56,898 bases of DNA from Nitrospinota bacterium (GTDB lineage: Bacteria > Nitrospinota_A > UBA7883 > JACRGQ01), in contig JACRGQ010000025.1 of assembly GCA_016217735.1 (NCBI GenBank), positions 1 through 56,898 of the forward strand, read 5' to 3'. The first letter of the stretch is position 1, and the number at the start of each line of letters is the position of its first letter. Shown here piece after piece: positions 34,816-56,898 of this stretch. A program made the translations under genes and the position numbers. Below the pieces are notes generated by a model. That model had not been told where the DNA came from and did no database searches. It saw only the letters and a program-made list of their open reading frames with translations.

Positions 34816-36396
34816 ATGTTCGACGCCGTCATACGGAACGCCACCCTTTACGGTCTTGAAGGGAACCGCTCCGCCGCGGCCGATCTCGGCATCAAGGACG
34901 GGCGGATAGCCAAGATAGGCGTGATAGCGGAAAAGGGCGCCGTCGAAATCGACGGCGCCGGCTATTGCGCCCTCCCCGGCTTCGTCGACGTCCATTCGCA
35001 CTCCGACTATTATCTTCTCATCGACCCCGCCGCCGAGGGAAAACTGCGGCAAGGGGTGACCAGCGAGGTGGGGGGAAACTGCGGTTACAGCTCCGCCCCC
35101 ATCGGCGGCGATATCTTCCGTGTGCGGAGCGAAGCGTACAAGGAGCAGTTCGGCCTCACGCTGGATTGGAAGACGTTTGACGAATATTGGCGGCGGCTGG
35201 AAAAGAAAAAAAGTTCCGTGAATTATGCGGGACTCATCGGCTACAACACCCTGCGCGCGTCGGTGCTCGGCAGCAAAGACGTGCCGGCCGCGGGGGAGGG
35301 AAAGGAAACGATGAAGCGGATGATCCGCGAGAACATGGCGCAGGGTGCCGCCGGCATGAGCGTCGGCCTCGTCTATCCCCCCGCCTGCTTCGCCACCAAG
35401 GAAGAGATGGTGGAAATGGTGGGGGAGGTTGCCAAGGCCGGAAAACTCTTCACCACCCACATCCGATCCGAGGGGCCGCGCCTCGTTGAATCCATCGAAG
35501 AGGTGATCGACATCGCCCGCCGCACCGGCGTGAAACTTCAGATATCGCACCTTAAAACCGCCGGCAAGGAAAACTGGCACAAGCTGGATACAGTGTTCAA
35601 TATGATAGAGGCCGCCCGCGCCGACGGGGTGGATATCGAATGCGACCGCTACCCCTACATCGCCAGCAACACCGGCTTGCAGGTGGTGCTGCCCGACTGG
35701 GCGTTCGACGGCGGGCGCGACGGCACCATCGCCTTCCTCAAAGACCCCGCCGCGCGGAACAAGATGCGCGCGGAAATTTTGGCCAATCACCCCGAACCGG
35801 AATACTGGGATACCGTGATGGTGTCGCAGGTGGTCACGCCGAAGAATTACGATATGCAGGGGGTGACCGTCGCGCGGGGAGCCAAAATAACCGGCAAAGA
35901 CCCGGTCGATTTCGTGTTCGACATACTGCTGGAGGAAAAAACCGAGGTGGAGGCGATCTACTTCTGCATGAACGATACAAACATGGACCGCATCCTGACC
36001 AAGGACTACGTGATGGTCGGCTCGGATGCCGGCGCGCGCTCCGTCGGCGGCCCGCTTGGCATCGGGCGGCCGCACCCGCGCACCTTCGGCACCTTTCCGC
36101 GTTTTTTCGCGGAGTACGTTTTCGGGCGGAAGCTCGTGTCGATGGAAGAGGCGGTCATGAAGACCAGCACGATGGCCTGCCGCCGTTTCGGCCTGGCGGG
36201 GCGCGGCGAACTGCGCGAAGGCTATTGGGCCGACATCGTGATGTTCCGCCCGGAGGCAATCGCCGATACCACCACCTACGAAAATCCGCTTTCGTACCCG
36301 AAAGGGGTCGACTATGTATTCGTCAACGGCACGCTCTCCATCAACAAGGGGGAGTATACCGGCGCGCTCGCCGGAAGGGGCCTGAAAATACTTTGA
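34816..36396 (+). CDS. N-acyl-D-amino-acid deacylase (amidohydrolase family)
   Basis: 526 aa, with AAGGAAG upstream. It shows the metal-site motifs of D-aminoacylases: DVHSHSDY (about 57-64), the Cys ligand in VGGNCGYSS, THIRSEG, ISHLKTAGKENW and VGSDAGAR. It has the N-terminal ATLYGL...DLGIKDGRIAKIG strand pair and the C-terminal GYWADIVMFRP pair of urease-like amidohydrolases. It releases D-amino acids from N-acyl forms, or acts on related D-glutamyl compounds. Its place after a murein hydrolase would fit recycling of wall-derived D-amino-acid products, which is inference. Confidence 0.87.
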   Translation: MFDAVIRNATLYGLEGNRSAAADLGIKDGRIAKIGVIAEKGAVEIDGAGYCALPGFVDVHSHSDYYLLIDPAAEGKLRQGVTSEVGGNCGYSSAPIGGDIFRVRSEAYKEQFGLTLDWKTFDEYWRRLEKKKSSVNYAGLIGYNTLRASVLGSKDVPAAGEGKETMKRMIRENMAQGAAGMSVGLVYPPACFATKEEMVEMVGEVAKAGKLFTTHIRSEGPRLVESIEEVIDIARRTGVKLQISHLKTAGKENWHKLDTVFNMIEAARADGVDIECDRYPYIASNTGLQVVLPDWAFDGGRDGTIAFLKDPAARNKMRAEILANHPEPEYWDTVMVSQVVTPKNYDMQGVTVARGAKITGKDPVDFVFDILLEEKTEVEAIYFCMNDTNMDRILTKDYVMVGSDAGARSVGGPLGIGRPHPRTFGTFPRFFAEYVFGRKLVSMEEAVMKTSTMACRRFGLAGRGELREGYWADIVMFRPEAIADTTTYENPLSYPKGVDYVFVNGTLSINKGEYTGALAGRGLKIL

Positions 36397-37298
36397 ACGA
36401 GCAGCGGCTCTACGAAGTAAAACAGGCCACCATCGCCCTGCTGGCGGAACGGTGGGAACAGAACTACCTGCTCAACCGCGGCGCCATCGCCGCCCTCCCC
36501 GGCGTGGCGAAACTCTTCGGGCGCTTCGCGGGTATTCCCGCCGTGCTGGCGGGGGCCGGGCCGTCGCTGGACCGCAACGTCCGCCTGCTGGCGGTGGCGC
36601 GGGGAAAAAGCGTTGTCATCGCCTGCGACGCGGCGCTGAAACCGCTTGCGGCGCTCGGCCTTGTGCCGGATATCGTGGTGAATCTCGATCCGCAGCTCTA
36701 CACGTCCAATTTTTTCGAGGGGGTCGACACAAAAAACATCACCCTCATAGCCCCCACCATTGTCCACCCGTCACTTCGGGAGATGTGGAAAGGCCCGTTC
36801 TTTTTTTACAACAAACATGCGCCCGACATTCCGATATTGGCAAAAATATCCCTCAACCATCCGCAGGTGGGGGCGCTGATACCGGGCGGCTCGGTTCTTT
36901 CCGTGGCGTACGACCTGGCCTTTAAAAGCGGTGCCGACCCGATAGCCTTCATCGGGCAGGACCTCGGCTACCCCGGCGGCAACGCCTATGCCGCCGGCAC
37001 CCACTTCGATTCATTCGAGGCCGAATCGATATTCGACCAACAAGGGGATGTGATCGTGGAGGAGCGCGATCTCTTCGGGCGGGCGCTCAAAACGCAGAAA
37101 TCGATGGCCGTCACCAAACAGTGGTTCGGCTGGGCCTTTGCCACCTGGCAGCCGGAGCGGAAACGGCGCATCTTCAATTGCAGCGAAGCGGGGATATTGA
37201 CCAACTGCCCGCTGATGACGTTCGGGGAGTTCGTGTCGCGTTTTTGCCGCAAAGGGGTGAACGTGGCATGGGGCATCAAAAAAGCCGCCAAAGGGTGA
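36393..37298 (+). CDS. DUF115 / MptE-like (Maf-type) protein
   Basis: 301 aa, TTG start overlapping the aminoacylase stop (TTTGA). The DUF115 core is clear: PAVLAGAGPSLDRNVRLL, IACDAALKPLAALGLVPDIVVNLDPQ and AFIGQDLGYPGGNAYAAGTH. In bacteria this domain occurs in Maf flagellin-glycosylation proteins, which transfer pseudaminic or legionaminic acid; in archaea it occurs in the pterin kinase MptE. This copy is short, close to the core alone. The nonulosonic-type genes at 48.7-56 kb make a glycan role attractive but unproven. Confidence 0.8.
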   Translation: MNEQRLYEVKQATIALLAERWEQNYLLNRGAIAALPGVAKLFGRFAGIPAVLAGAGPSLDRNVRLLAVARGKSVVIACDAALKPLAALGLVPDIVVNLDPQLYTSNFFEGVDTKNITLIAPTIVHPSLREMWKGPFFFYNKHAPDIPILAKISLNHPQVGALIPGGSVLSVAYDLAFKSGADPIAFIGQDLGYPGGNAYAAGTHFDSFEAESIFDQQGDVIVEERDLFGRALKTQKSMAVTKQWFGWAFATWQPERKRRIFNCSEAGILTNCPLMTFGEFVSRFCRKGVNVAWGIKKAAKG

Positions 37299-45448: not shown

Positions 45449-45988
45449 ATGAGCGATTTGTTGGGGATGAGTGTAAATAATGGTTTAGGGTGGTATGCGC
45501 TAAGGGTGCGGCACCAAAATGAATTTAGCGTTTCCGATTTCTTTCGCAAGCAGTTTGGAATTCAGGCAAATGTGCCGGCCATGGAAGTGTGGAAAAGAAA
45601 GAACGGCCTGAAAGTTGCCGTAACTAAGCCTTTATTGAGCACTTACGTGTTTATCGAGGCGAAATGGGAGGCTATCGAGGCCAAAATAATGTTTTCCCAC
45701 AAAGGGGTATTAGGCTTTGTCCGAAACAACGGCAACCTTGCTGTCATTCCAAATGAACAGGTGCAAACCCTTGAAAGATTGACTTCTTCAAAGGCTCCGA
45801 TTTATGATCTGCCATATTCCAAATTAAAAGAGGGTGAGCGGGTTTATGTCGTCGCTGGCCCTTTGGCCGGGGCGATTGGACAATTTGTCCGGATTAATCC
45901 CAAAACGGGACGTTTTATAGTTACCCTTGACCTTTTCAAGAGGGCCTTGGTGACCGAGCTTGAATCGGATTTATTGGAGCCATTTTAA
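45449..45988 (+). CDS. NusG-paralogue antiterminator (RfaH/UpxY/LoaP type)
   Basis: 179 aa. NGN domain from WYALRVRHQNEFSVSDFF to about residue 105, with LLSTYVFIEAKWE typical of specialised NusG proteins; KOW domain from KEGERVYVVAGPLAGAIGQFVRIN to the end. Such paralogues bind RNA polymerase and suppress termination in long polysaccharide operons. Its position ahead of the flippase and nonulosonic genes suggests that it controls this locus. No ops-type element (GGCGGTAG) was seen by eye. The start is set by a promoter directly upstream; ATG 45467 is an alternative. Confidence 0.88.
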   Translation: MSDLLGMSVNNGLGWYALRVRHQNEFSVSDFFRKQFGIQANVPAMEVWKRKNGLKVAVTKPLLSTYVFIEAKWEAIEAKIMFSHKGVLGFVRNNGNLAVIPNEQVQTLERLTSSKAPIYDLPYSKLKEGERVYVVAGPLAGAIGQFVRINPKTGRFIVTLDLFKRALVTELESDLLEPF

Positions 45989-46810: not shown

Positions 46811-46924
46811 ATGGGGGGGGGCGCCACGCTAGTGAAGAAAATGGTGCGAGAATATCTCAAGAGTGCCGAGCTTGATGGACTGGCTAATAAACATGGCCGC
46901 AAGGCCCTGGATTGCCACGAATAA
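46811..46924 (+). CDS. short ORF opening with a G9 tract (possible remnant or phase-variable leader)
   Basis: 37 codons: ATG immediately followed by G (nine consecutive Gs at 46813-46821), reading MGGGATLVKKMVREYLKSAE and ending LDCHE. The body looks helical and basic/acidic, like a fragment of a larger protein; no family is recognised. It overlaps the TTG start of the flippase gene. A change of tract length would alter the frame and might change coupling to the flippase. It could equally be debris of a deleted gene. Confidence 0.3.
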   Translation: MGGGATLVKKMVREYLKSAELDGLANKHGRKALDCHE

Positions 46925-48705
46925 TTCAGGTGCTAAACATTCAACCCATCACCCTGCTCCTAAGCCGTCTCTGGCGCCATATCAGCGTTCGACGGCGCGG
47001 GCAGTTCGGGCTCCTGCTCGTTTTGATGATCCTGGCCTCGTTCACGGAAATCGTCAGCCTGGGGGCTGTACTGCCTTTCCTTGGTATGCTCACCGCGCCG
47101 GGGCGCGTTTTTGAACACCCAGCCGCCCAGCCATTCGTCCAATTCTTAGGGTTCACCGAGGCAAATCAGCTTTTGTTACCCCTTTGCATTGCCTTTGGCC
47201 TGGTGGCTCTCATGGCCGGCGCGATGCGCATGTTGCTGCTCTGGGCCAACACACGTCTATCCTATGCGACCGGCGCCGATCTCAGCATCAGCATCTACCG
47301 CCGTACGCTTTATCAGCCATACGCGGTCCACGTCGCCCGCAACAGCAGCGAGATCATCAACGGCATCTCAAACAAAACGAATGGAGTAATACACGTCATT
47401 TTGATGATCCTCAACCTTGTCGGTTCGAGTGTCACACTGGCCGCGATCCTGATCGCCCTATTGGCCGTTGACCCGGTAAGCGCGCTAACGGCCTTTGGCG
47501 GTTTTGCTTTGATCTATGTTGTCATTATTCGGGTTACCAGGAATCGGCTATTACGTAATAGCCAATGCATCGCCCGCGAATCGACACAGGTCATTCAATC
47601 GCTGCAAGAAGGGTTAGGCGGCATTCGTGATGTCCTTATTGATGGCAGCCAGGCCACTTATTGCCAGATTTACCGCAACGCTGATCACCCCCTGCGCCTT
47701 GCCCAAGGAAGCAGCTCCTTTATCAGCGGCAGCCCGCGATATGTAATGGAAGCGCTGGGTATGCTGCTTATCGTTGGTCTGGCTTATACGCTTGCCCAGC
47801 AACCGGATGGCATTGTCAAGGCCATCCCTGTTCTGGGTGCTCTGGCATTCGGCGCTCAGCGTTTTTTGCCTGTGCTTCAGCTGGCGTATGTCTCTTGGTC
47901 CGGCATTCAAGGCGGACAAGCCTCCCTGCAAGACGCAATTGAATTGCTCGATCAACCCCTTCCCGACTATGCCAATCAATCGGCTGCCGCCCCGTTAACG
48001 TTCCGGCACACAATCAGCCTGGAAAAACTTTCGTTTCGCTATAGCCCCCATACACCATGGGTAATCAATAACGTCAACCTCAAGATCGCCAAGGGCAGCC
48101 GTGTGGGTTTCATCGGCACGACCGGCAGCGGCAAGAGCACCCTTCTCGATATCGTCATGGGCCTGTTGCAACCTACGGAGGGGGTAATCGCAATTGATGG
48201 GCAGCCCATAACGCTACGCAACCACCGTGCTTGGCAAGCGCATATCGCGCATGTGCCGCAGGCCATCTTCCTGACCGATAGCACTATCGAAGAAAATATC
48301 GCTTTTGGTGTGCCCAAGGACCAGATCAACCATGCGCGTGTCGAGCAGGCGGCTCAACAGGCGCAAATTGCCGAAGTCATCGGAACCTGGCCCAAGCAAT
48401 ACCAAACCTTCGTCGGTGAACGCGGCATCCGTTTATCCGGCGGCCAACGCCAGCGCATCGGCATAGCGCGCGCCCTTTACAAACAGGCCGATGTCATCAT
48501 CTTTGACGAAGCAACCAGCGCTCTGGACAACGAAACTGAACAAGCCGTCATGCAAGCCATCGAAGGTCTCAGCGAGGATCTCACAATTCTCATTATCGCC
48601 CACCGTTTCACCACCCTGAAAAACTGCACACAGATAGTGGAATTGGGTGATGGCGGCATTAAGCGAACGGGCACCTACCAAGAAATTATGGCGCAATTGG
48701 TATAA
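46912..48705 (+). CDS. MsbA/PglK-like ABC flippase
   Basis: 597 aa, TTG start. Six transmembrane helices in the first ~330 residues, then a full ABC domain: Walker A GTTGSGKST (about 403), Q-loop HVPQAIFLTDSTIEENI, signature LSGGQRQRIGIARAL (about 509), Walker B VIIFDEATSALD and H-switch IAHR. It is a half-transporter that homodimerises. The membrane part resembles PglK-type lipid-linked oligosaccharide flippases (SFTEIVSLGAVLPFLGML), so it may replace Wzx in moving the glycan unit to the periplasm. Codon choice looks different from the first half of the window. Confidence 0.88.
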   Translation: MPRIIQVLNIQPITLLLSRLWRHISVRRRGQFGLLLVLMILASFTEIVSLGAVLPFLGMLTAPGRVFEHPAAQPFVQFLGFTEANQLLLPLCIAFGLVALMAGAMRMLLLWANTRLSYATGADLSISIYRRTLYQPYAVHVARNSSEIINGISNKTNGVIHVILMILNLVGSSVTLAAILIALLAVDPVSALTAFGGFALIYVVIIRVTRNRLLRNSQCIARESTQVIQSLQEGLGGIRDVLIDGSQATYCQIYRNADHPLRLAQGSSSFISGSPRYVMEALGMLLIVGLAYTLAQQPDGIVKAIPVLGALAFGAQRFLPVLQLAYVSWSGIQGGQASLQDAIELLDQPLPDYANQSAAAPLTFRHTISLEKLSFRYSPHTPWVINNVNLKIAKGSRVGFIGTTGSGKSTLLDIVMGLLQPTEGVIAIDGQPITLRNHRAWQAHIAHVPQAIFLTDSTIEENIAFGVPKDQINHARVEQAAQQAQIAEVIGTWPKQYQTFVGERGIRLSGGQRQRIGIARALYKQADVIIFDEATSALDNETEQAVMQAIEGLSEDLTILIIAHRFTTLKNCTQIVELGDGGIKRTGTYQEIMAQLV

Positions 48706-48723
48706 ACTGCTTTGGGTAAACAC

Positions 48724-49740
48724 ATGAATCGAACAAATCCAAACTCACGTATTCTTGTTACCGGCGCCGATGGTTTCATCGGATCGCACCTGACTGAATC
48801 CCTGGTGCGTCAGGGGCATAACGTCCGTGCATTCGTGCTCTACAACTCCTTCAATTCTTGGGGTTGGCTGGATCATTGTGCGCCCGACGTTAAAAATCAG
48901 TTCGAGGTATTTGCCGGCGATATCCGCGACCCGCATGGGGTGAAAGAGGCCATGAAGGGTTGCGACGCGGTGTTGCATTTGGCCGCCCTGATCGCCATTC
49001 CCTATTCCTACCACTCACCCGACACGTATGTCGATACCAACGTCAAAGGCACGCTGAATGTGATGCAAGCGGCGCGCGAGCTTGGCGTCAAAAGAGTCGT
49101 TCACACATCGACCAGCGAAGTTTATGGCACGGCGCGTTTCGTGCCAATTACCGAAGAGCACCCCTTGCAGGGGCAGTCTCCGTACTCGGCCACCAAGATT
49201 GCCGCGGATCAGCTGGCCTATTCCTTCTACACGTCCTTCGGTCTGCCGGTGGTGATTGCGCGGCCCTTCAACACCTATGGCCCGCGCCAGTCCGCCCGCG
49301 CCGTGATTCCAACCATCATTACCCAGATCGCCAACGGCCGGCGCCAGGTCAAGCTCGGCGCGATATCGCCTACACGGGATTTCAACTTCGTGCAGGACAC
49401 GGTAGCGGGTTTCATCGCCGCCCTGAATTCCAATCAGGGGTTGGGCGAAGTGGTTAACTTCGGCAGTAATTTTGAGATTTCCATCGGCGACACTGCCCGG
49501 GTCATTGCGGAGGTAATGGGTGCTGAAATCGAGATACTGACCGATGAGCAGCGCCTCCGGCCCGAAAGGAGCGAGGTGGAACGGCTGTGGGCATCTAATG
49601 AGAAAGCTCGTAAGTTGCTGGGTTGGCAACCACAGTATGGAGGCTTGGAGGGCTTTCGGCGAGGCTTGGCAGTAACCGTTGACTGGTTTAAACGGCATGT
49701 CGATCTTATTGGCTATAAAGCGGATATCTATAATGTCTAG
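48724..49740 (+). CDS. LegB-like NAD-dependent sugar-nucleotide 4,6-dehydratase
   Basis: 338 aa from the ATG at 48724. Extended SDR: GADGFIGSHLTE, LHLAALIAIPYSYHSPDTYVDTN, TSTSEVYGTA, the catalytic Y-x3-K in SPYSATKIAADQ, RPFNTYGPRQSARAVIPTI and the family ending YKADIYNV. The FVLYNSFNSWGWLDH segment is diagnostic of the LegB group, which makes the 4-keto-6-deoxy sugar nucleotide at the start of legionaminic acid synthesis. Its usual partner, a PLP aminotransferase (LegC), is not found next to it nor anywhere in the window. Confidence 0.88.
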   Translation: MNRTNPNSRILVTGADGFIGSHLTESLVRQGHNVRAFVLYNSFNSWGWLDHCAPDVKNQFEVFAGDIRDPHGVKEAMKGCDAVLHLAALIAIPYSYHSPDTYVDTNVKGTLNVMQAARELGVKRVVHTSTSEVYGTARFVPITEEHPLQGQSPYSATKIAADQLAYSFYTSFGLPVVIARPFNTYGPRQSARAVIPTIITQIANGRRQVKLGAISPTRDFNFVQDTVAGFIAALNSNQGLGEVVNFGSNFEISIGDTARVIAEVMGAEIEILTDEQRLRPERSEVERLWASNEKARKLLGWQPQYGGLEGFRRGLAVTVDWFKRHVDLIGYKADIYNV

Positions 49741-50443
49741 ACGTGCAGTGATTCTCGCGGGGGGAAAGGGCACACGGTTGCGTCCCTATACGGTTGTTCT
49801 GCCGAAACCGCTGATGCCAATTGGTGAATTCCCCATTCTCGAAGTGATCGTCAAGCAACTTGTTGCCGCTGGTTTCAGCCATATAACCATGGCGGTCAAC
49901 CATCAAGCGGAAATTATCAAGGCGTTCTTCAGGGATGGCGGGAAATGGGGCATCCGCATTGATTATTCGCTTGAAGACAGGCCGCTTGGCACCATGGGGC
50001 CGCTTCTGCTGATTAAGGACTTGCCGGAACATTTTTTAGTGATGAACGGGGATGTTCTTACCGATCTCGATTATCTTGATTTTCATGATGCCCACGTTCG
50101 GGCGGACAACATTTTTACCATCTCTTCATATATCCGGGAGCAACTCATCGATTACGGCGTGTTAGAGACCCGTGATGGCCGTTTGATTGGCTTGCGCGAA
50201 AAGCCGCGAATGAATTATGAGGTCAGCATGGGGGTCTATATGATGTCAAGGCGCGCGCTTGGTTTTATTCCATCTGTTAGTGCTTATGGATTCGACCACC
50301 TTATGCACGATCTTGTTGCCGCAAAGCAAAATGCCGCGGTCCGCAGATTCGGGGGCTACTGGCTGGATATTGGCCGGCCGGATGATTACGCTCAGGCCAT
50401 TGAGGAATTTGAGAGCATGCGTGCACGGTTTCTCCGCGAATAA
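49733..50443 (+). CDS. sugar-1-phosphate nucleotidyltransferase
   Basis: 236 aa, starting 8 nt inside the dehydratase gene. GGKGTRLRPYTVVLPKPLMPIG is the nucleotide/phosphosugar motif, with VMNGDVLTDLDYLDF carrying the metal Asp and GGYWLDIGRPDDYAQA near the end. It makes an NDP-sugar, probably GDP- or UDP-linked. In legionaminic pathways of Campylobacter a GDP-GlcN-forming enzyme (PtmE) has this role, but with CBS domains that are absent here. Confidence 0.87.
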   Translation: MSRRAVILAGGKGTRLRPYTVVLPKPLMPIGEFPILEVIVKQLVAAGFSHITMAVNHQAEIIKAFFRDGGKWGIRIDYSLEDRPLGTMGPLLLIKDLPEHFLVMNGDVLTDLDYLDFHDAHVRADNIFTISSYIREQLIDYGVLETRDGRLIGLREKPRMNYEVSMGVYMMSRRALGFIPSVSAYGFDHLMHDLVAAKQNAAVRRFGGYWLDIGRPDDYAQAIEEFESMRARFLRE

Positions 50444-51307
50444 ATGAAAAGCATACTGGTAACCGGCGCTGGGGGGTTCATCGGGCGGCGACTGATAAGC
50501 TTCTTGGAAAATGCAGGCCACTCTGTGCGTGCGCTGGGGAGTGAGGACGGCGATATCGCCGACCCTGCCACCTTGGGGCGGCTTGATGCGCTACCTGTGG
50601 ATTTTGTATTTCATCTTGCCGGACGGACCTATGTGCCTGACGCATGGCGGGAGCCGGCGGATTTTCAGCGGGTGAACGTTGTCGGCACCCTGAACGTGCT
50701 GGAGCTGTGCCGGGCAAAAAAAATACCTTTGACTTATGTCAGCGCTTATTTGTACGGCATACCGTCCTCATTGCCGGTCAAGGAAACCGACAGGATTGAG
50801 CCAAATAATCCCTATGCGTTGTCGAAAACCCTCGCTGAATCCCTATGCCGATTTTATGCCGAGCATTTTGCGATTCCCCTGACTATCATCCGTCCGTTCA
50901 ATATTTACGGGCCGGGGCAGAAGGGACACTTCCTGATTCCCGAAATCATGGCGCAGATAAAAGCCGGAAAACCCATTCGCCTTAAAGACCTTTTTCCCCG
51001 GCGGGACTATCTTTACTTGGATGATTTGGTTGATGCATTGATCCGCACGATCGGTCCGAAGCCGGGATTCCATGTCTACAACATCGGTTACGGCAGCTCG
51101 TTCAGTGTGCGTGAAATCGTCGATGTCATCCAATCCGTCGCGGGGACATCGCTGCCTGTCGTGAGCGAAAATGCTCCCCGGCAAAATGAAATTTCGGATG
51201 TATACGCGGACATTGGCAAAGCCGTGCGTGAATTGAACTGGCATCCACGACACAGTTTGGAAGAGGGTATTAAGACCATGATCTTTAGCGGGGAGCATAT
51301 CGCATGA
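50444..51307 (+). CDS. NAD-dependent epimerase/dehydratase (second SDR)
   Basis: 287 aa, starting at the base after the previous stop. Rossmann GAGGFIGRRLISFL, VDFVFHLAGRTYVPDAWREP, catalytic NPYALSKTLAE, RPFNIYGPGQKGHFLIPEIM and RDYLYLDDLVDALI. It resembles 4,6-dehydratases, 4-epimerases or 4-ketoreductases; the exact reaction cannot be told. A second SDR in the operon implies an extra keto/epimer step beyond the standard nonulosonic route. Confidence 0.85.
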   Translation: MKSILVTGAGGFIGRRLISFLENAGHSVRALGSEDGDIADPATLGRLDALPVDFVFHLAGRTYVPDAWREPADFQRVNVVGTLNVLELCRAKKIPLTYVSAYLYGIPSSLPVKETDRIEPNNPYALSKTLAESLCRFYAEHFAIPLTIIRPFNIYGPGQKGHFLIPEIMAQIKAGKPIRLKDLFPRRDYLYLDDLVDALIRTIGPKPGFHVYNIGYGSSFSVREIVDVIQSVAGTSLPVVSENAPRQNEISDVYADIGKAVRELNWHPRHSLEEGIKTMIFSGEHIA

Positions 51308-52374
51308 CCGACCGGCACGTACCGATCAACAAAGGCAATTATTCAATGGATACTCCGGAACGGGAGACGCATTTCGAGCAATGCCGCGGTGATGGCTGGG
51401 AAGCGGAATATACGGATTACCGAAACAAATGGGCTGCGCTTGCCAAGTCGCAGCATGTATCCGAATATCCCCTGCTGGTGGATATAGAGCTTTCATCGGT
51501 TTGCAATCTGGCTTGCCCGATGTGCTACACCATAACTGATGAATTCAGCAAGGTGGTGAACACCACCCGGATGGACTTTGATCTGTATAAGCGGATTATC
51601 GATGAAATCGGCGGCAAGGTTCCGGCAATACGGCTGAGTTTGCGTGGCGAGGCTACCCTGCATCCCAAGTTTATTGAATGTATAGCTTATGCCAAGGAGC
51701 GGGGGATTAAGGAGGTTTCTTTCTTAACTCATGGCGGCAAGCTGACGTTGCCGTATTTTGAAAAAATGGTTCATGCGGGCATTGACTGGATCACCATTTC
51801 AATTGATGGCCTTGGGGAGACTTATGAGAGCATCCGCAAGCCACTTAAATTTAATGACCTGTTCGACAAGATCAAGGCGATTAAGAAATACAAGGACGAC
51901 CATAACCTCAGACGCCCGGTGATTAAAATTCAAGGTATCTGGCCCGCGATTGCCAATAACCCAGAGGCCTATTACCGCGCGTTTGCTCCATACTCCGATT
52001 TGGTTGCGTTCAATCCTTTAATTGACTATCTGTCCAATGACTCTCATATCGAATATCTGGATAATTTTACATGTCCGCAACAATATCAGCGGCTGGTGAT
52101 AGGGGCTGACGGGTTGGTGATGAAGTGCTCGAATGATGAGGAAAACCGCGAAGTGATCGGCGACATCAAGCGGGAAACCGTGCATCAGGTGTGGCACGGC
52201 GAGAAAATGGAGGCGGTGCGCGAAATGCATAAACAGCCGCGCGGTTTTTTGCAAAGTGCCGTATGCCGCAAGTGCTATCTGCCGCGCTTGACCAATGACG
52301 AGGAGGCGCAGTTGGGCGACCGCACATTCATCGTGCGCAATTATGTGAACCGCAGCCAGGTGATAGGTAAATAG
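51304..52374 (+). CDS. radical SAM protein with C-terminal SPASM-like cysteines
   Basis: 356 aa, overlapping the SDR by 4 nt. CNLACPMC (C-x3-C-x2-C, about 66-73) binds the radical SAM 4Fe-4S cluster; LSLRGEATLHP (GE motif) and ISIDGLGETYESIRKPLKF follow in order. Cys residues near CPQQYQ, MKCSND and CRKCYLPR fit a SPASM/twitch auxiliary cluster. Fusion or pairing partners give no substrate. Set between an SDR and NeuB, it is likely to act on a sugar or sugar nucleotide (dehydration, epimerisation, methylation or C-C chemistry), which is not part of known pseudaminic or legionaminic pathways. Confidence 0.88.
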   Translation: MTDRHVPINKGNYSMDTPERETHFEQCRGDGWEAEYTDYRNKWAALAKSQHVSEYPLLVDIELSSVCNLACPMCYTITDEFSKVVNTTRMDFDLYKRIIDEIGGKVPAIRLSLRGEATLHPKFIECIAYAKERGIKEVSFLTHGGKLTLPYFEKMVHAGIDWITISIDGLGETYESIRKPLKFNDLFDKIKAIKKYKDDHNLRRPVIKIQGIWPAIANNPEAYYRAFAPYSDLVAFNPLIDYLSNDSHIEYLDNFTCPQQYQRLVIGADGLVMKCSNDEENREVIGDIKRETVHQVWHGEKMEAVREMHKQPRGFLQSAVCRKCYLPRLTNDEEAQLGDRTFIVRNYVNRSQVIGK

Positions 52375-52417
52375 GCGGCAAACCTGTGAGAACTGAACCC
52401 AGAGGATAATTTTCACC

Positions 52418-53434
52418 ATGTTCAAGAAATACACGGCGGATCGTTGCTACATCATTGCGGAGATCGGCGGCAATTTCACCGCCATTGACGAAGCTCGCCG
52501 CCTGATTGACGCCGCCGCGGAATGCGGTGTGGACGCGGTCAAACTACAGACTTATCGCGCCGATACGTTGTCCAGCACCCGTGCCATTTTTGATATGGAG
52601 AACACGGGGATTGTTTCCCAGTATGAGATGTTTCAGAAGTTCGAAATCAGTGAGAGTTTGCACAAGAAAGTCTTTGACTATGCCGAATCCAAAGGCTTGG
52701 ACTGGTTTTCCACGCCTTCGCACGCAACCGATGTGGATATGCTGGAAAAATACGGTGTCGGCGCACACAAAATCGGTTCGGACGATGCGGTGAACTTGCC
52801 TTTTCTGCGCCATGTGGCGCGTACCGGCAAGCCGATTATGCTTTCGACCGGCATGTGTACGCTGGAAGAAGTACGCGATTCGGTTGATGCCATTTTGGCG
52901 GAAGGCAACGAAAATCTGATTTTGCTGCACGCCGTCACAAGCTATCCGACCCATCCGGGAAACGTCAATTTAGCCGCCATGCAGACGCTGATGCAGGCGT
53001 TCCCGCAACTGGACGTCGGTTACTCCGACCATACCCTGTCGCCGGTTGCCTGCTTGTGTGCAGTGGCGATGGGTGCGCGGGTGATTGAAAAACACTTCAC
53101 GTTTGACAAAAAGGCCGATGGTCCGGATCACATGCTTTCCGCCGACCCGGGGGAAATGAGGTGGCTGGTGGAGGCGGTGCGCAACTTCGAGACCATGCGC
53201 GGCTCCGGGATCAAGCGGCCCGCCGACAGCGAGAAGGTCACACGGCGCAACAACCGCAAGAGCGTAGTGCTGAATCGCAACGTGAAAGCGGGAGAGCGTT
53301 TGACCGAACAGGACATCGCCGTCAAACGGCCCGGTTACGGCATCGGCCCGAAATATTTCGACCAAGTCGTCGGGCGGACGGTGGCCGCTGACATGAAAAA
53401 AGACGACGTGCTGACTTGGGCTGATCTGGCGTGA
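52418..53434 (+). CDS. neuB: NeuB-family nonulosonic acid synthase
   Basis: 338 aa. The TIM-barrel NeuB domain (CYIIAEIGGNFTAIDEARRLIDAAAECGVDAVKLQTYRADTL ... VTSYPTHPGNVNL ... VGYSDHTL ... VIEKHFTFDKKADGPDHMLSADP) is followed by a SAF/antifreeze-like domain (about 275-338: KSVVLNRNVKAGERLTEQDIAVKRPGYGI). It condenses phosphoenolpyruvate with a six-carbon N-acyl sugar to give a nine-carbon sialic-like acid. Which one (Neu5Ac, legionaminic, pseudaminic or other) cannot be decided, but the PseG-like gene suggests a UDP- or GDP-sugar-derived precursor. Confidence 0.95.
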   Translation: MFKKYTADRCYIIAEIGGNFTAIDEARRLIDAAAECGVDAVKLQTYRADTLSSTRAIFDMENTGIVSQYEMFQKFEISESLHKKVFDYAESKGLDWFSTPSHATDVDMLEKYGVGAHKIGSDDAVNLPFLRHVARTGKPIMLSTGMCTLEEVRDSVDAILAEGNENLILLHAVTSYPTHPGNVNLAAMQTLMQAFPQLDVGYSDHTLSPVACLCAVAMGARVIEKHFTFDKKADGPDHMLSADPGEMRWLVEAVRNFETMRGSGIKRPADSEKVTRRNNRKSVVLNRNVKAGERLTEQDIAVKRPGYGIGPKYFDQVVGRTVAADMKKDDVLTWADLA

Positions 53435-54108
53435 GTGTTGGCGTCATCATACAAGCCAGAATGGGTTCGACCCGTTTGCCCGGCAAGGTATTGATGCCCA
53501 TTTCGGGCAAGGCGTTGCTGGATCATGTGCTGGGCAGATTGTCCCTGCTGAACTTCCCGGTAACGGTGGTGGTCGCCACCAGCGGCCTGCCGCAGGACGA
53601 TGCCATCGCCCTGCATTGCCTTTCCAGGGGCGTGAAGGTATTTCGCGGCAGCGAAACCGATGTGCTTGACAGATATTACCAGTGCGCCCGTGAATGCGGC
53701 TTTGCGCATGTGGTGAGGCTGACGGCGGACAATCCGTTCACCGATATGGAAGAGTTGCGGCGATTGATAGATATCCACTTGGCCCAGCATAACGATTACA
53801 CCCACTCTTTTGGCGCCATGCCGCTGGGCGTGGGGGCGGAGATTTTTACTTTTGCCGCTTTGGAAAAAAGTGCGCGGGAAGGCCATGCGTCTAATCACCG
53901 CGAACATGTTAACGAATTTATTCAGGAGAACCCCGGCAGTTTCAAAATTTGCGCGCTGGAAGTGGCCGCAACCAAACGCCGCCCCGATCTGCGCCTGACG
54001 GTTGATACCAAAGACGATTATCGGCGCGCCTGCGCCATTGCCGGACACGATCCAGACCGTTGGATAGGCACTGAAGAGGCGATTCGGCTATGTTCGCACT
54101 CTGCATAG
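53431..54108 (+). CDS. SpsF-like cytidylyltransferase
   Basis: 225 aa, GTG start in the GTGA overlap with neuB. VIIQARMGSTRLPGKVLMPI is the nucleotide-binding loop of SpsF/CMP-NeuA-related transferases; TADNPFTDMEEL and LRLTVDTKDDYRRA follow as in that family. It probably activates the nonulosonic acid as a CMP-sugar, the role NeuA/PseF plays elsewhere. The end overlaps the next gene by 19 nt. Confidence 0.85.
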   Translation: MSVGVIIQARMGSTRLPGKVLMPISGKALLDHVLGRLSLLNFPVTVVVATSGLPQDDAIALHCLSRGVKVFRGSETDVLDRYYQCARECGFAHVVRLTADNPFTDMEELRRLIDIHLAQHNDYTHSFGAMPLGVGAEIFTFAALEKSAREGHASNHREHVNEFIQENPGSFKICALEVAATKRRPDLRLTVDTKDDYRRACAIAGHDPDRWIGTEEAIRLCSHSA

Positions 54109-55043
54109 AAAGTTCCCATGCGCGCGGCATGGGGCACTTCTACCGCGCATTGAACTTGGCGGATGGACTGGCGAATGCGGGGATACCTTGCATGTTTTAT
54201 GTGAACGATCACATTCCTTCCCGTCAAATCCTCCTTGAGAGAAAGTCGCCGCACCGGACAGTGGACCTTGAGGACCTCACGGGCAACTGGGAAGCACAAC
54301 TGATACGGCAGGATGGCATACTGTTGTGGATCGATGACCGCCTCGATACCGACGTCCGTCATTCGGAAAAAGTAAAAGCGGCCGGCATTCCGTTGGTGAC
54401 ATTCGATGACCGGGGGACGGGAGCGGAGTTGGCGGATATGCACATTGCCGCGCTGGCCTTTGATGCCCAAGAGCGGCTTGCGGGCGGCAAGTTGTTGCGC
54501 GGCGCGGACTATCTGATACTGAACCCGCAAATCGCCGATTACCGGCGCTTGCGCAAGCGGCTTTCCAGCATACTGGTGACGTTGGGTGGTAGCGATACCT
54601 ACGGAGTGACGGTTAAGGTGGTTCGGCTGCTTAAGGGAATGGGGTTGGCCGCCACCATTGTTATAGGACCGGCGTTTATGCACAATGATCTTTTAGAGCA
54701 CGAGTTGACACCGGCGTTTACCGTAAAGCGTGGCATTCCTTCGCTGATTGAGGAATTTGCCCGGCATGACCTGGCGATTACCGGCGGCGGCATCACCCCG
54801 TTCGAGGCTAATGCATCCGGCTTGCCCTGCGTGGTGATCGCCAATGAGCGATTTGAGATACCAGTTGGCCAAGCTTTGCAGAGCCTGGGTGGTTCGGTCT
54901 TCGCCGGGAGTCATGAAGCGTTGACGGCGCCATTGTTTTCGATGGACTTGCCATTGGAACGGATGAGCGGCGCCGGGATGAACAATATCGGATTGCAAGG
55001 AACACAACGCGTAATATCCGCGCTTTTGGAACTCACCGAATGA
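54090..55043 (+). CDS. PseG-like NDP-sugar hydrolase
   Basis: 317 aa. SHARGMGHFYRALNLADGLANAG contains the GxGHxxR motif whose His is catalytic in PseG. The GT-B-like second half has ILVTLGGSDTYGVTVKVV and DLAITGGGITPFEANASGLPCVVI. PseG removes UDP from the amino sugar before NeuB-type condensation. The order here (synthase, activation, hydrolase) is not reaction order, but all genes overlap and must be co-expressed. Confidence 0.87.
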   Translation: MFALCIESSHARGMGHFYRALNLADGLANAGIPCMFYVNDHIPSRQILLERKSPHRTVDLEDLTGNWEAQLIRQDGILLWIDDRLDTDVRHSEKVKAAGIPLVTFDDRGTGAELADMHIAALAFDAQERLAGGKLLRGADYLILNPQIADYRRLRKRLSSILVTLGGSDTYGVTVKVVRLLKGMGLAATIVIGPAFMHNDLLEHELTPAFTVKRGIPSLIEEFARHDLAITGGGITPFEANASGLPCVVIANERFEIPVGQALQSLGGSVFAGSHEALTAPLFSMDLPLERMSGAGMNNIGLQGTQRVISALLELTE

Positions 55044-55744
55044 ACAGGAAAGCGGTGGTTATCCACCAACCCGATTTTGCCCCCTATCTGGGGTTCTTCC
55101 ATCGCTTTCTGAATGCGGATATGTATATCGCGCTGGATCACGTGCAATTTGTAAATGGCACCAGCCGGGCTTGGACGCACCGCGACAAAATCAAGACCGA
55201 ACAGGGTGAAAAATGGTTGACCGTTGGCGTAAAAAAGGCGCCGCGCGATACCGCGATTAACGATATTGAGCTTTCCACCACCGCCGACTGGCGGCGTGAT
55301 AATCTGCGCCTGCTCGAACAGCATTATCGCAATGCCCCGTTTTTTGCCGAAATGATGCCGGAGATAAACCGTTTGTACGCCCAACCATTCCGCATGCTGC
55401 GCGATTTCAATATGGCCTCCATAGAAATGCTGATGGACTTGCTCGATGTGCGCATTCCCTGGGTATGGTCAAGCGGCTTGGATCCGGTTGGGACAAAAAA
55501 CGAATTGCTGGTTGATTTGCTGCGGAAGGTTTCCGCCACGCACTACTGTTCCGGCGTAGGCGCGCGGGATTATTTCGATCCGGCTCCTTTCAGGGAAGCG
55601 GGGATTGAAGTCGTATGGCAAAAATTTACTCCCCCCGCGTATCCCCAGCTTTATGGTAAATTTGTTCCGTATTTGAGCAGCATCGATCTGCTGTTTAACT
55701 GTGGCGTGGAGAAATCCAGGGAAATATTGAAAGGCTGTCAATGA
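55040..55744 (+). CDS. WbqC-family protein
   Basis: 234 aa, 4-nt overlap with the PseG-like gene. The N-terminal VVIHQPDFAPYLGFFHRFLNADMYIALDHVQF, the RDKIKTEQGEKWLTVGV and the final FVPYLSSIDLLFNCG are hallmarks of the WbqC family (Pfam PF08889), found in O-antigen and nonulosonic acid loci. The biochemical role was not established to my knowledge; a part in N-acyl or amino-acid substitution of the sugar is sometimes proposed from context. Confidence 0.87.
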   Translation: MNRKAVVIHQPDFAPYLGFFHRFLNADMYIALDHVQFVNGTSRAWTHRDKIKTEQGEKWLTVGVKKAPRDTAINDIELSTTADWRRDNLRLLEQHYRNAPFFAEMMPEINRLYAQPFRMLRDFNMASIEMLMDLLDVRIPWVWSSGLDPVGTKNELLVDLLRKVSATHYCSGVGARDYFDPAPFREAGIEVVWQKFTPPAYPQLYGKFVPYLSSIDLLFNCGVEKSREILKGCQ

Positions 55745-56373
55745 ATATTCTGGCGATAGGCGCGCATTTCGATGATGTGGAGCTGGGGTGCGGCGGCGCC
55801 TTGGCAAAACACGCGCAAAACGGCGACAATGTCTATGTGTATGTGGCAACGGTTTCCGGCTTCACCAATCAATACAATCAAACCGTCCGGTCCAGCGAAA
55901 TTGCCCTTGGAGAGGCGCGGGTTGCCATGAAAATACTTGGCGTAATAGAGATGGTTTGCGGCAAGTTTAAAACATTGGATGTTGAGTTCGTCGATGAACT
56001 CAATATCGAAATCCTTAAAATTGTTCAGGAAAAAAAAATCGACAAAGTCTACGCGCATTGGGTCGGCGATATCCATCATGACCATCAAGCTGTGGCCAAA
56101 GCCTCGCTGCACAGTTGCCGGCATGTGCCGCGCATGTTGATGTACCGAAGTAATTGGTACCATTCCACCATGGAGTTCCGGGGGAATTTTTACGTTGACA
56201 TCACCAAGCAGTGGGAGGTCAAGGAGCGAGCCATTCAATCACATGCCTCGGAAATGTACCGCACCAGCAGCAAGTGGGTCGGATTTTTCAAGAATGAGGC
56301 GGAGAATGCCGGTCAGCGGATTGGCGTGAATTATGCGGAAGTTTTCGAGGTGGTTAAATGGCTGGAAATGTAA
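55741..56373 (+). CDS. PIG-L-family N-deacetylase
   Basis: 210 aa, 4-nt overlap. AHFDDVELGCGG (the usual AHPDD zinc motif, with Phe in place of Pro) and HWVGDIHHDHQAVAKA supply the zinc ligands. Family members remove the acetyl group from GlcNAc-type sugars. Together with the WbqC gene it suggests that an acetamido group is removed and replaced by another substituent. The end overlaps the next gene by 16 nt. Confidence 0.87.
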   Translation: MNILAIGAHFDDVELGCGGALAKHAQNGDNVYVYVATVSGFTNQYNQTVRSSEIALGEARVAMKILGVIEMVCGKFKTLDVEFVDELNIEILKIVQEKKIDKVYAHWVGDIHHDHQAVAKASLHSCRHVPRMLMYRSNWYHSTMEFRGNFYVDITKQWEVKERAIQSHASEMYRTSSKWVGFFKNEAENAGQRIGVNYAEVFEVVKWLEM

Positions 56374-56898
56374 ATTCTTATCTTAACCGGTTACTCCAAA
56401 TCCACTGGCTACGGCCGGAGACTGCCCTGTGGCGCACCTTTGACTGCCTGTTAATGGAAAAATATGGGGGCATCTCCGGGCGTTCCGTTGACTTGGGGTG
56501 TGGTGACGGCACCATGAGCTTTATCATGGCGGATGGAACAGTTGACGAGTATGACGTGTTCATGGATGTCGGAGAATTGCAAAACTACAATTCAGGAGCC
56601 GATATTTACAACCAGAACACGAACATCCGGCTCAAAACCGATTTAACTCGCTTACGGCATGCTTTTGAATGGGGTGTGGACCACAAGGATGGGCTGATAG
56701 ACAAGGCAAAAAGATTTGCGCCGTTTTACCGGAACACTCTGGTTTGCGACCTGAACCAGAAACTGCCATTTGAGGACGGCCATTTTGATTCCGCATTTTC
56801 CAATATCCTGTATTGGCTCGATGACATGGATATTACGCTGTCTGAGTGGCGAAGAGCGATAAAGAAGCAAGGAAAGCTTTATTTGTTTGTTCCAAACA
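56358..56898 (+). CDS. class I SAM-dependent methyltransferase (partial, cut by window end)
   Basis: At least 180 codons from the ATG at 56358, open to the window edge. Motif I is VDLGCGDGTMSF (about 48-59), and DLNQKLPFEDGHFDSAFSNILYWL (around 134-157) is the acidic loop/motif II-III region of Methyltransf_11-type enzymes. It probably methylates an O or N group of the glycan, or belongs to the transferase part of the locus. It begins inside the deacetylase gene, so it is part of the same operon, which continues beyond the window. Confidence 0.75.
   Translation, partial: MAGNVNSYLNRLLQIHWLRPETALWRTFDCLLMEKYGGISGRSVDLGCGDGTMSFIMADGTVDEYDVFMDVGELQNYNSGADIYNQNTNIRLKTDLTRLRHAFEWGVDHKDGLIDKAKRFAPFYRNTLVCDLNQKLPFEDGHFDSAFSNILYWLDDMDITLSEWRRAIKKQGKLYLFVPN

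Follow-up and report, generated by a model that had tools for sequence, protein, structure and literature searches.

A twitch-domain radical SAM enzyme in nonulosonic-acid gene clusters as a lead to a radical-dependent branch of sialic-acid-like sugar biosynthesis

The window (the whole stretch of DNA analyzed, 56,898 nucleotides) carries, at 51304..52374 on the + strand, an intact ORF with an ATG start that encodes a twitch-domain radical SAM enzyme of 356 aa. The gene lies within a cassette of sugar genes, all of them on the + strand. The cassette opens with a LegB-type NAD-dependent 4,6-dehydratase of the legionaminic pathway (48712..49740), which scores 535.7 bits against TIGR04180 (cut-off 475), followed by a sugar-1-phosphate nucleotidyltransferase (49679..50443) that resembles mannose-1-phosphate and heptose-1-phosphate guanylyltransferases; the exact start of the latter is uncertain, its conserved region beginning at ~49735. 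The next gene, SDR2 (50444..51307), has GDP-6-deoxy-D-mannose reductase as its closest match in the PDB and probably encodes an NDP-4-keto-6-deoxysugar reductase or epimerase. Downstream of the radical SAM gene are a NeuB-family nonulosonate synthase (52418..53434; PF03102 and SAF), an SpsF/KdsB-type CMP-sugar cytidylyltransferase (53431..54108; PF02348) that also matches the N-terminal half of TIGR04321 (spiro-SPASM), a PseG/SpsG-like NDP-sugar hydrolase (54090..55043; 73.6 bits against TIGR03590, below the cut-off), a WbqC-like protein (55040..55744; PF08889) and, by domain or family matches, a PIG-L/BshB1-like sugar de-N-acetylase (55741..56373) and a SAM-dependent methyltransferase truncated at the end of the contig (56358..56897). 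Several other loci have a homologue of this methyltransferase placed between the radical SAM and neuB genes. Directly upstream of the cassette is an ABC transporter, possibly a glycan flippase (46912..48705), homologues of which (72-77%) also stand ahead of the cassette in loci L025, L036 and L039. Two further genes lie upstream. A NusG-like protein (45449-45988), which is possibly a specialized antiterminator of the operon, is encoded ahead of the polysaccharide genes, and an MptE-like/Maf-type protein (36396-37298; PF01973, 124 bits), ~11 kb upstream of the cassette, is a candidate for the enzyme that transfers nonulosonic acids to flagellin.

The radical SAM gene is translationally coupled to the upstream sugar reductase/epimerase gene through ATGA at 51304-51307, and neuB starts at 52418, 43 bp downstream of it; the tie to a sugar operon that the first-pass annotation had drawn from this 4-nt overlap therefore holds. 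Residues 1-55 of the protein form a conserved N-terminal extension, followed by a radical SAM core (~58-250) with CNLACPMC at positions 67-74 (C67, C71 and C74). A Pfam scan of the protein found Radical_SAM (PF04055, 52.9 bits, cut-off 29.5) and SPASM (PF13186, 39.8 bits, also above cut-off) and no further N-terminal domain, such as a PqqD-like recognition element, and an NCBIfam scan found zero models above their curated cut-offs. Alignment of the homologues revealed a common sequence, xVPINKGNYSMDTxERE, at the extreme N-terminus, indicating that the start codon is correct, and a chance ORF is excluded by the 47-79% identity seen across most of the homologue set. The ORF call, the Pfam result and the invariance of its Cys residues in 36/36 homologues bear out the earlier description of CNLACPMC as intact.

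Exactly seven Cys residues are invariant in the 36 homologues, three in the radical SAM motif and four at the C-terminus (C257, C275, C321 and C324, in the twitch domain), and the next best column, position 126, has Cys in 23/36. Other invariant residues of the protein are R114, E116, Q210, W213, N237 and R263. The auxiliary Cys residues are spaced CX17CX43-45CX2C in 36/36 homologues. A twitch domain is a truncated SPASM domain, with four Cys residues around a beta-hairpin and a helix. A SPASM domain has the seven-Cys motif CX9-15GX4C-gap-CX2CX5CX3C-gap-C (PMC6231123); its seven C-terminal Cys residues hold two clusters, where twitch holds one (PMC6231123, PMC9012708). With four C-terminal Cys residues and not seven, the protein is therefore a twitch enzyme, for which one auxiliary cluster is expected. 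The label SPASM-like, given on first reading, stands as far as the PF13186 match goes and fails for a full SPASM domain, as does the Cys-rich C-terminus in the SPASM sense.

Assignment to the twitch class is also supported by the fold. BtrN was the top match of the family profile in the PDB (E 2.8e-16), and a fold search with the AlphaFold model of the protein (mean pLDDT 94) again placed BtrN first (4M7T, E 1.8e-12, TM 0.77 normalized to BtrN, 18% identity). The matches also include DesII and BlsE, which are sugar or nucleoside radical SAM enzymes, as well as peptide maturases, and because they span both kinds the fold alone does not settle the reaction. Among twitch/SPASM enzymes the reaction is likewise not predictable from sequence relatedness (PMC6231123).

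By similarity to the window protein, we gathered 49 loci from public genomes and plasmids (31-79% identity), a set that, being found in this way, is not an unbiased census. According to the record titles the hosts are Alpha- and Betaproteobacteria, Nitrospira, Nitrospina, Chlorobiaceae, Bacteroidetes, Campylobacterales, Lachnospiraceae, Elusimicrobia, Cyanobacteria and Melainabacteria. Across these many phyla the homologues lie in nonulosonic-acid (sialic-acid-like) gene clusters with NeuB in 47 of the 49 loci; the other two, a contig that ends just past the enzyme and a cluster with only LegB, a nucleotidyltransferase and an SDR, still contain sugar genes. The remaining counts are 45 for the cytidylyltransferase, 43 for the PseG-like hydrolase, 41 for LegB (counted loosely, with distant LegB-like SDRs included), 40 for WbqC, and 38 each for SDR2 and PIG-L. 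The usual order is LegB, nucleotidyltransferase, SDR2, radical SAM enzyme, then a methyltransferase, a hexapeptide acyltransferase or nothing, then NeuB, CMP-transferase, PseG-like hydrolase, WbqC and PIG-L. SDR, radical SAM enzyme and NeuB follow one another in 30/49 loci, where the gap upstream of the radical SAM gene is mostly 13-31 bp and the gap downstream is short or occupied by the acyltransferase or methyltransferase gene. SDR2 is missing from eleven radical SAM loci whose front ends differ (L052, L053, L055-L057, L059, L063-L065, L067 and L068), although NeuB and the radical SAM gene are both retained there; the front end, perhaps also the product, therefore varies.

The association with NeuB was also seen in an independent check on whole genomes. 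Of 120 Rhizobium genomes, 21 have the enzyme, and a matching NeuB (69-72% identity) adjoins it in the same 21; only two other NeuB matches were found, at 39-41%. Shared ancestry reduces the number of independent events in Rhizobium and explains part of this concordance. In the order to which G060 belongs (399 genomes), three genomes carry the radical SAM gene and the same three carry NeuB, the two genes being directly adjacent or one gene-sized gap apart. In 32 complete cassettes, the radical SAM and NeuB proteins diverge in step (correlation of pairwise distances 0.944), which fits genes that are inherited together. Related genomes also have distant homologues (25-31% identity); within the short flanks examined, most of these have no NeuB next to them, and for this reason we have treated them as other twitch families. 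Near the cassette or directly upstream of the enzyme, L023 (18907-19998) and L055 (8998-9996) have a second radical SAM/twitch-like gene, 21-25% identical. In 25 loci (for example L021 and L032) PIG-L is followed by a conserved protein (~288 aa, GNGPSAK motif) that resembles MptE weakly, below cut-off, and is a possible dedicated nonulosonate transferase. In a Sulfuricurvum (L057:142-2481), the genes immediately ahead of the nonulosonate genes encode an iron-containing alcohol dehydrogenase and then an aminotransferase resembling PseC (234 bits, under the cut-off), a pair that we take to be reminiscent of KdnA/KdnB for 8-amino-Kdo.

Gene fusions are found as well. In a Lachnospiraceae MAG, a single protein of 706 aa (L059:8945-11065) contains NeuB, SAF, radical SAM and SPASM/twitch domains, with 55% identity to the window protein in the radical SAM half; the fusion gene is followed by an ACP-sized gene and a ligase-like gene. 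In two other nonulosonate clusters (L063:4446-6164 and L065:5901-7622) a cytidylyltransferase is fused to a radical SAM/SPASM module, which is present in addition to the twitch enzyme and thus is a paralogous module. Both kinds of fusion, with NeuB and with a cytidylyltransferase, link radical SAM proteins to steps of the nonulosonate pathway and not to peptides. In the same gene neighborhood of a Chlorobiaceae MAG, a CMP-sugar cytidylyltransferase is fused to a class-III aminotransferase (L036:19401-21071).

The linkage and the fusions bear on the possibility that the enzyme is a peptide or protein maturase of the RiPP or sulfatase type that is merely located in a glycan locus. Most of the named SPASM/twitch NCBIfam families that weakly match the protein are peptide or metalloenzyme maturases, which speaks for this explanation. 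However, none of the NCBIfam models scores above its cut-off, a PqqD-like N-terminal domain was not reported, and the constant neighbors are sugar genes, with NeuB as the fusion partner. In the window the gene is flanked by the 4-nt overlap and by 43 bp, and a conserved peptide-sized gene beside the radical SAM gene was looked for in the 49 loci and none was seen. We consider a maturase very improbable and rejected it, given that every locus has sugar genes and a conserved precursor gene was seen in none. The suggestion of a carbohydrate substrate, made when the sequence was first read, has thus come through the comparison of loci, in which neither of the two refutations then named (a short Cys-rich peptide gene consistently next to homologues, or a lack of sugar genes in other genomes) was borne out, and it is further supported by BtrN as the best relative among solved structures by profile and fold. 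Where a carbohydrate as in AprD4-, BtrN- or DesII-type enzymes was then proposed, a nonulosonic acid or its hexosamine precursor is most likely, and not an aminoglycoside-type sugar. Overall, it is highly probable that the radical SAM enzyme is dedicated to nonulosonic-acid biosynthesis and acts on the sugar.

The cassette appears to have moved between bacteria. The G+C content is 53% in the ABC transporter and cassette, compared with 61% in the first 38 kb. LegB, NeuB, the CMP-transferase and PIG-L are 71-86% identical to relatives in Nitrosomonadales, Ferrovum, Nitrospira and Chlorobiaceae, and the radical SAM homologue in a genome of the same genus is only 47% identical. Closest relatives in other phyla, together with the low identity within the genus, indicate acquisition of the cassette as a whole, and by its composition and similarities 46912-56898 is probably a horizontally acquired island. 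A scan of viral_contigs with the family alignment found no relative, and the homologues in phage records are distant only; we therefore see no sign of the gene travelling on phages. Relatives at 25-28% are present in Campylobacter jejuni phages (H28, OP654737.1, 114721-115440), one of them annotated as a BtrN protein, and Brachyspira hyodysenteriae plasmids (H3-H11) carry distant (25-28%) radical SAM relatives.

With LegB above cut-off in the window, legionaminic acid was considered as the product. However, LegC (TIGR04181, cut-off 420 bits) is above cut-off in 0/22 cassette genomes, the window's own included; the nearest score is 416 bits (G074), and the best in its own genome is 190 bits. 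LegB without LegC indicates that the product is probably not legionaminic acid, which we rejected. The NeuB of the window also falls below the cut-offs of both the Neu family (350.9 against 399.65 for TIGR03569) and the Pse family (279.8 against 340.25 for TIGR03586). From these scores, the lack of LegC, the reductase-like SDR2 and the guanylyltransferase-like nucleotidyltransferase, we infer a nonulosonic acid that would bear oxygen, not nitrogen, at C7. Trideoxy fusaminic acid is a known nonulosonic acid (PMC7371886, PMC5595891). The NeuB linkage by itself does not fix the stage at which the radical SAM enzyme acts, but SDR2 tracks LegB while the radical SAM enzyme tracks NeuB, suggesting action at or after the free hexosamine stage. 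We find it somewhat probable that this conserved, horizontally spread cassette encodes a radical-SAM-dependent nonulosonic-acid pathway, in which the SDR and the twitch enzyme replace the aminotransferase and acetyltransferase of the known Leg and Pse routes and the product receives a backbone change that has no assigned enzyme so far.

For the specific chemistry we tentatively favor a dehydrogenase. BtrN and other twitch enzymes whose low-potential auxiliary cluster is ligated by Cys alone catalyze two-electron oxidations (PMC9012708), and in the sugar epimerases of this group an extra Cys residue is the hydrogen donor, for example Cys249 of NeoN (PMC10991966). A dehydrogenase is preferred because this class of cluster does net oxidation and because the Cys donor of the epimerases is missing. 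Counting against BtrN-type chemistry, Arg152 of BtrN, which we take to be the likely general base, aligns with Pro238, a nearly invariant residue in the family.

A HygY/NeoN-like epimerase, which would invert one carbon of a hexosamine, nonulosonic acid or CMP-nonulosonic acid by returning hydrogen from the other face, is rather unlikely. Several natural nonulosonic acids are epimers, some of them proposed to arise from CMP-Leg via extra genes (PMC5595891), and EpeE is among the fold matches. Enzymes of the HygY, NeoN and EpeE type would call for an eighth invariant Cys, whereas only the seven cluster ligands are invariant, and a Cys-donor epimerase is disfavored on this ground. Unlikely, too, is an AprD4-like 1,2-diol dehydratase, which would remove a hydroxyl and leave a keto-deoxy intermediate for reduction by SDR2, a net deoxygenation. 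AprD4 pairs with the SDR reductase AprD3, and in most loci the radical SAM gene and SDR2 are neighbors (in swapped order in L049, L061 and L066); nonulosonic acids are, moreover, deoxy sugars. However, it is LegB and the nucleotidyltransferase that SDR2 accompanies, not the radical SAM gene; it is absent from the eleven loci named above, and AprD4 is not among the PDB matches listed for profile or fold. A fully Cys-ligated low-potential auxiliary cluster is, in addition, associated with net oxidations (PMC9012708).

The decorating genes raise the possibility that the target of the enzyme is not the carbon skeleton but an N-acyl, aminoacyl or methylated side group of the sugar, handled by PIG-L, WbqC or the methyltransferase. 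WbqC and PIG-L homologues accompany the radical SAM gene even in the distant loci L063-L065, L067 and L068, and the pairwise distances of PIG-L correlate with those of the radical SAM protein (0.946) as well as do those of NeuB. On the other hand, no WbqC or PIG-L homologue was detected in the Campylobacterales loci L055-L057, which have both the radical SAM gene and NeuB, and the fusion partner is NeuB rather than WbqC or PIG-L. We regard action on an attached group as improbable.

Taken as a whole, the best explanation is a BtrN-like twitch radical oxidoreductase that modifies the nonulosonate or a precursor in a pathway not described before, a reading we put just short of probable. We infer every substrate and every reaction of the pathway from the gene content. 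The nucleotidyltransferase would activate a GlcNAc-type sugar, LegB would convert it to a 4-keto-6-deoxy sugar, and SDR2 would reduce the ketone where the Leg and Pse routes would add an amine. The 6-deoxyhexosamine might then be freed by the PseG-like hydrolase and condensed with phosphoenolpyruvate by NeuB, and the CMP-sugar would be made by the SpsF-like enzyme, with trimming or decoration by PIG-L, WbqC, the methyltransferase or an acyltransferase presumably coming last. At or near the NeuB step, the radical SAM enzyme would cleave SAM to a 5'-deoxyadenosyl radical that takes a hydrogen from a sugar carbon, and the auxiliary [4Fe-4S] cluster would take up the electron. The net reaction would most likely be C-OH to C=O, as in BtrN, and the resulting ketone could persist, be aminated or undergo reduction with inversion.

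Sialic-acid-like sugars are found on flagella, capsules and lipopolysaccharides, and new isomers continue to be discovered for which no enzymes are known. Radical SAM sugar chemistry and nonulosonic acids are each known, and their combination is not found in the literature searched; the search, with subscription journals mostly outside its scope, returned nothing linking radical SAM enzymes to nonulosonic acids. If the proposal is true, radical sugar chemistry would be extended from antibiotics to common surface glycans, and the gene would be a genetic marker for an uncharacterized nonulosonic acid in rhizobia, nitrifiers, green sulfur bacteria and gut Lachnospiraceae, opening its structure to direct testing. 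The cassette is a good lead: it points to a new branch of nonulosonic-acid biosynthesis that would depend on radical chemistry.

Among known systems, the enzyme is closest to BtrN, the 2-deoxy-scyllo-inosamine dehydrogenase of butirosin synthesis, which has the same radical SAM plus twitch fold, the same four-Cys auxiliary spacing in the aligned residues (CX17CX44CX2C) and a sugar-like polyol as substrate. BtrN is, however, ~100 residues shorter and without the INKGNYSMDTxERE region, and the window enzyme has no butirosin-type neighbors; its substrate must differ from that of BtrN. Spiro-SPASM (TIGR04321) of spirochaetes joins a radical SAM/SPASM module to a CMP-sugar-transferase-like module, like the L063 and L065 fusions, whereas the cytidylyltransferase of the window is a separate gene. 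The TIGR04321 model weakly matches all 36 homologues, at 45.6 bits against a cut-off of 250 and over residues 48-324 only for the window enzyme. The CMP-legionaminic routes of Campylobacter (Leg) and Bacillus subtilis (sps) have the 4,6-dehydratase, PseG/SpsG-like, NeuB/SpsE and SpsF-type enzymes in common with the cassette, and as SpsG, SpsE and SpsF serve the CMP-legionaminic acid route in B. subtilis (PMC7439481), the back end of the cassette is of an established kind. In contrast to these routes, the SDR and the radical SAM enzyme stand where an aminotransferase and an acetyltransferase are expected. At the level of the product only, the analogy is with trideoxy fusaminic acid, whose 9-deoxy, 7-hydroxy nonulosonic acid scaffold is what the gene set of the cassette predicts.
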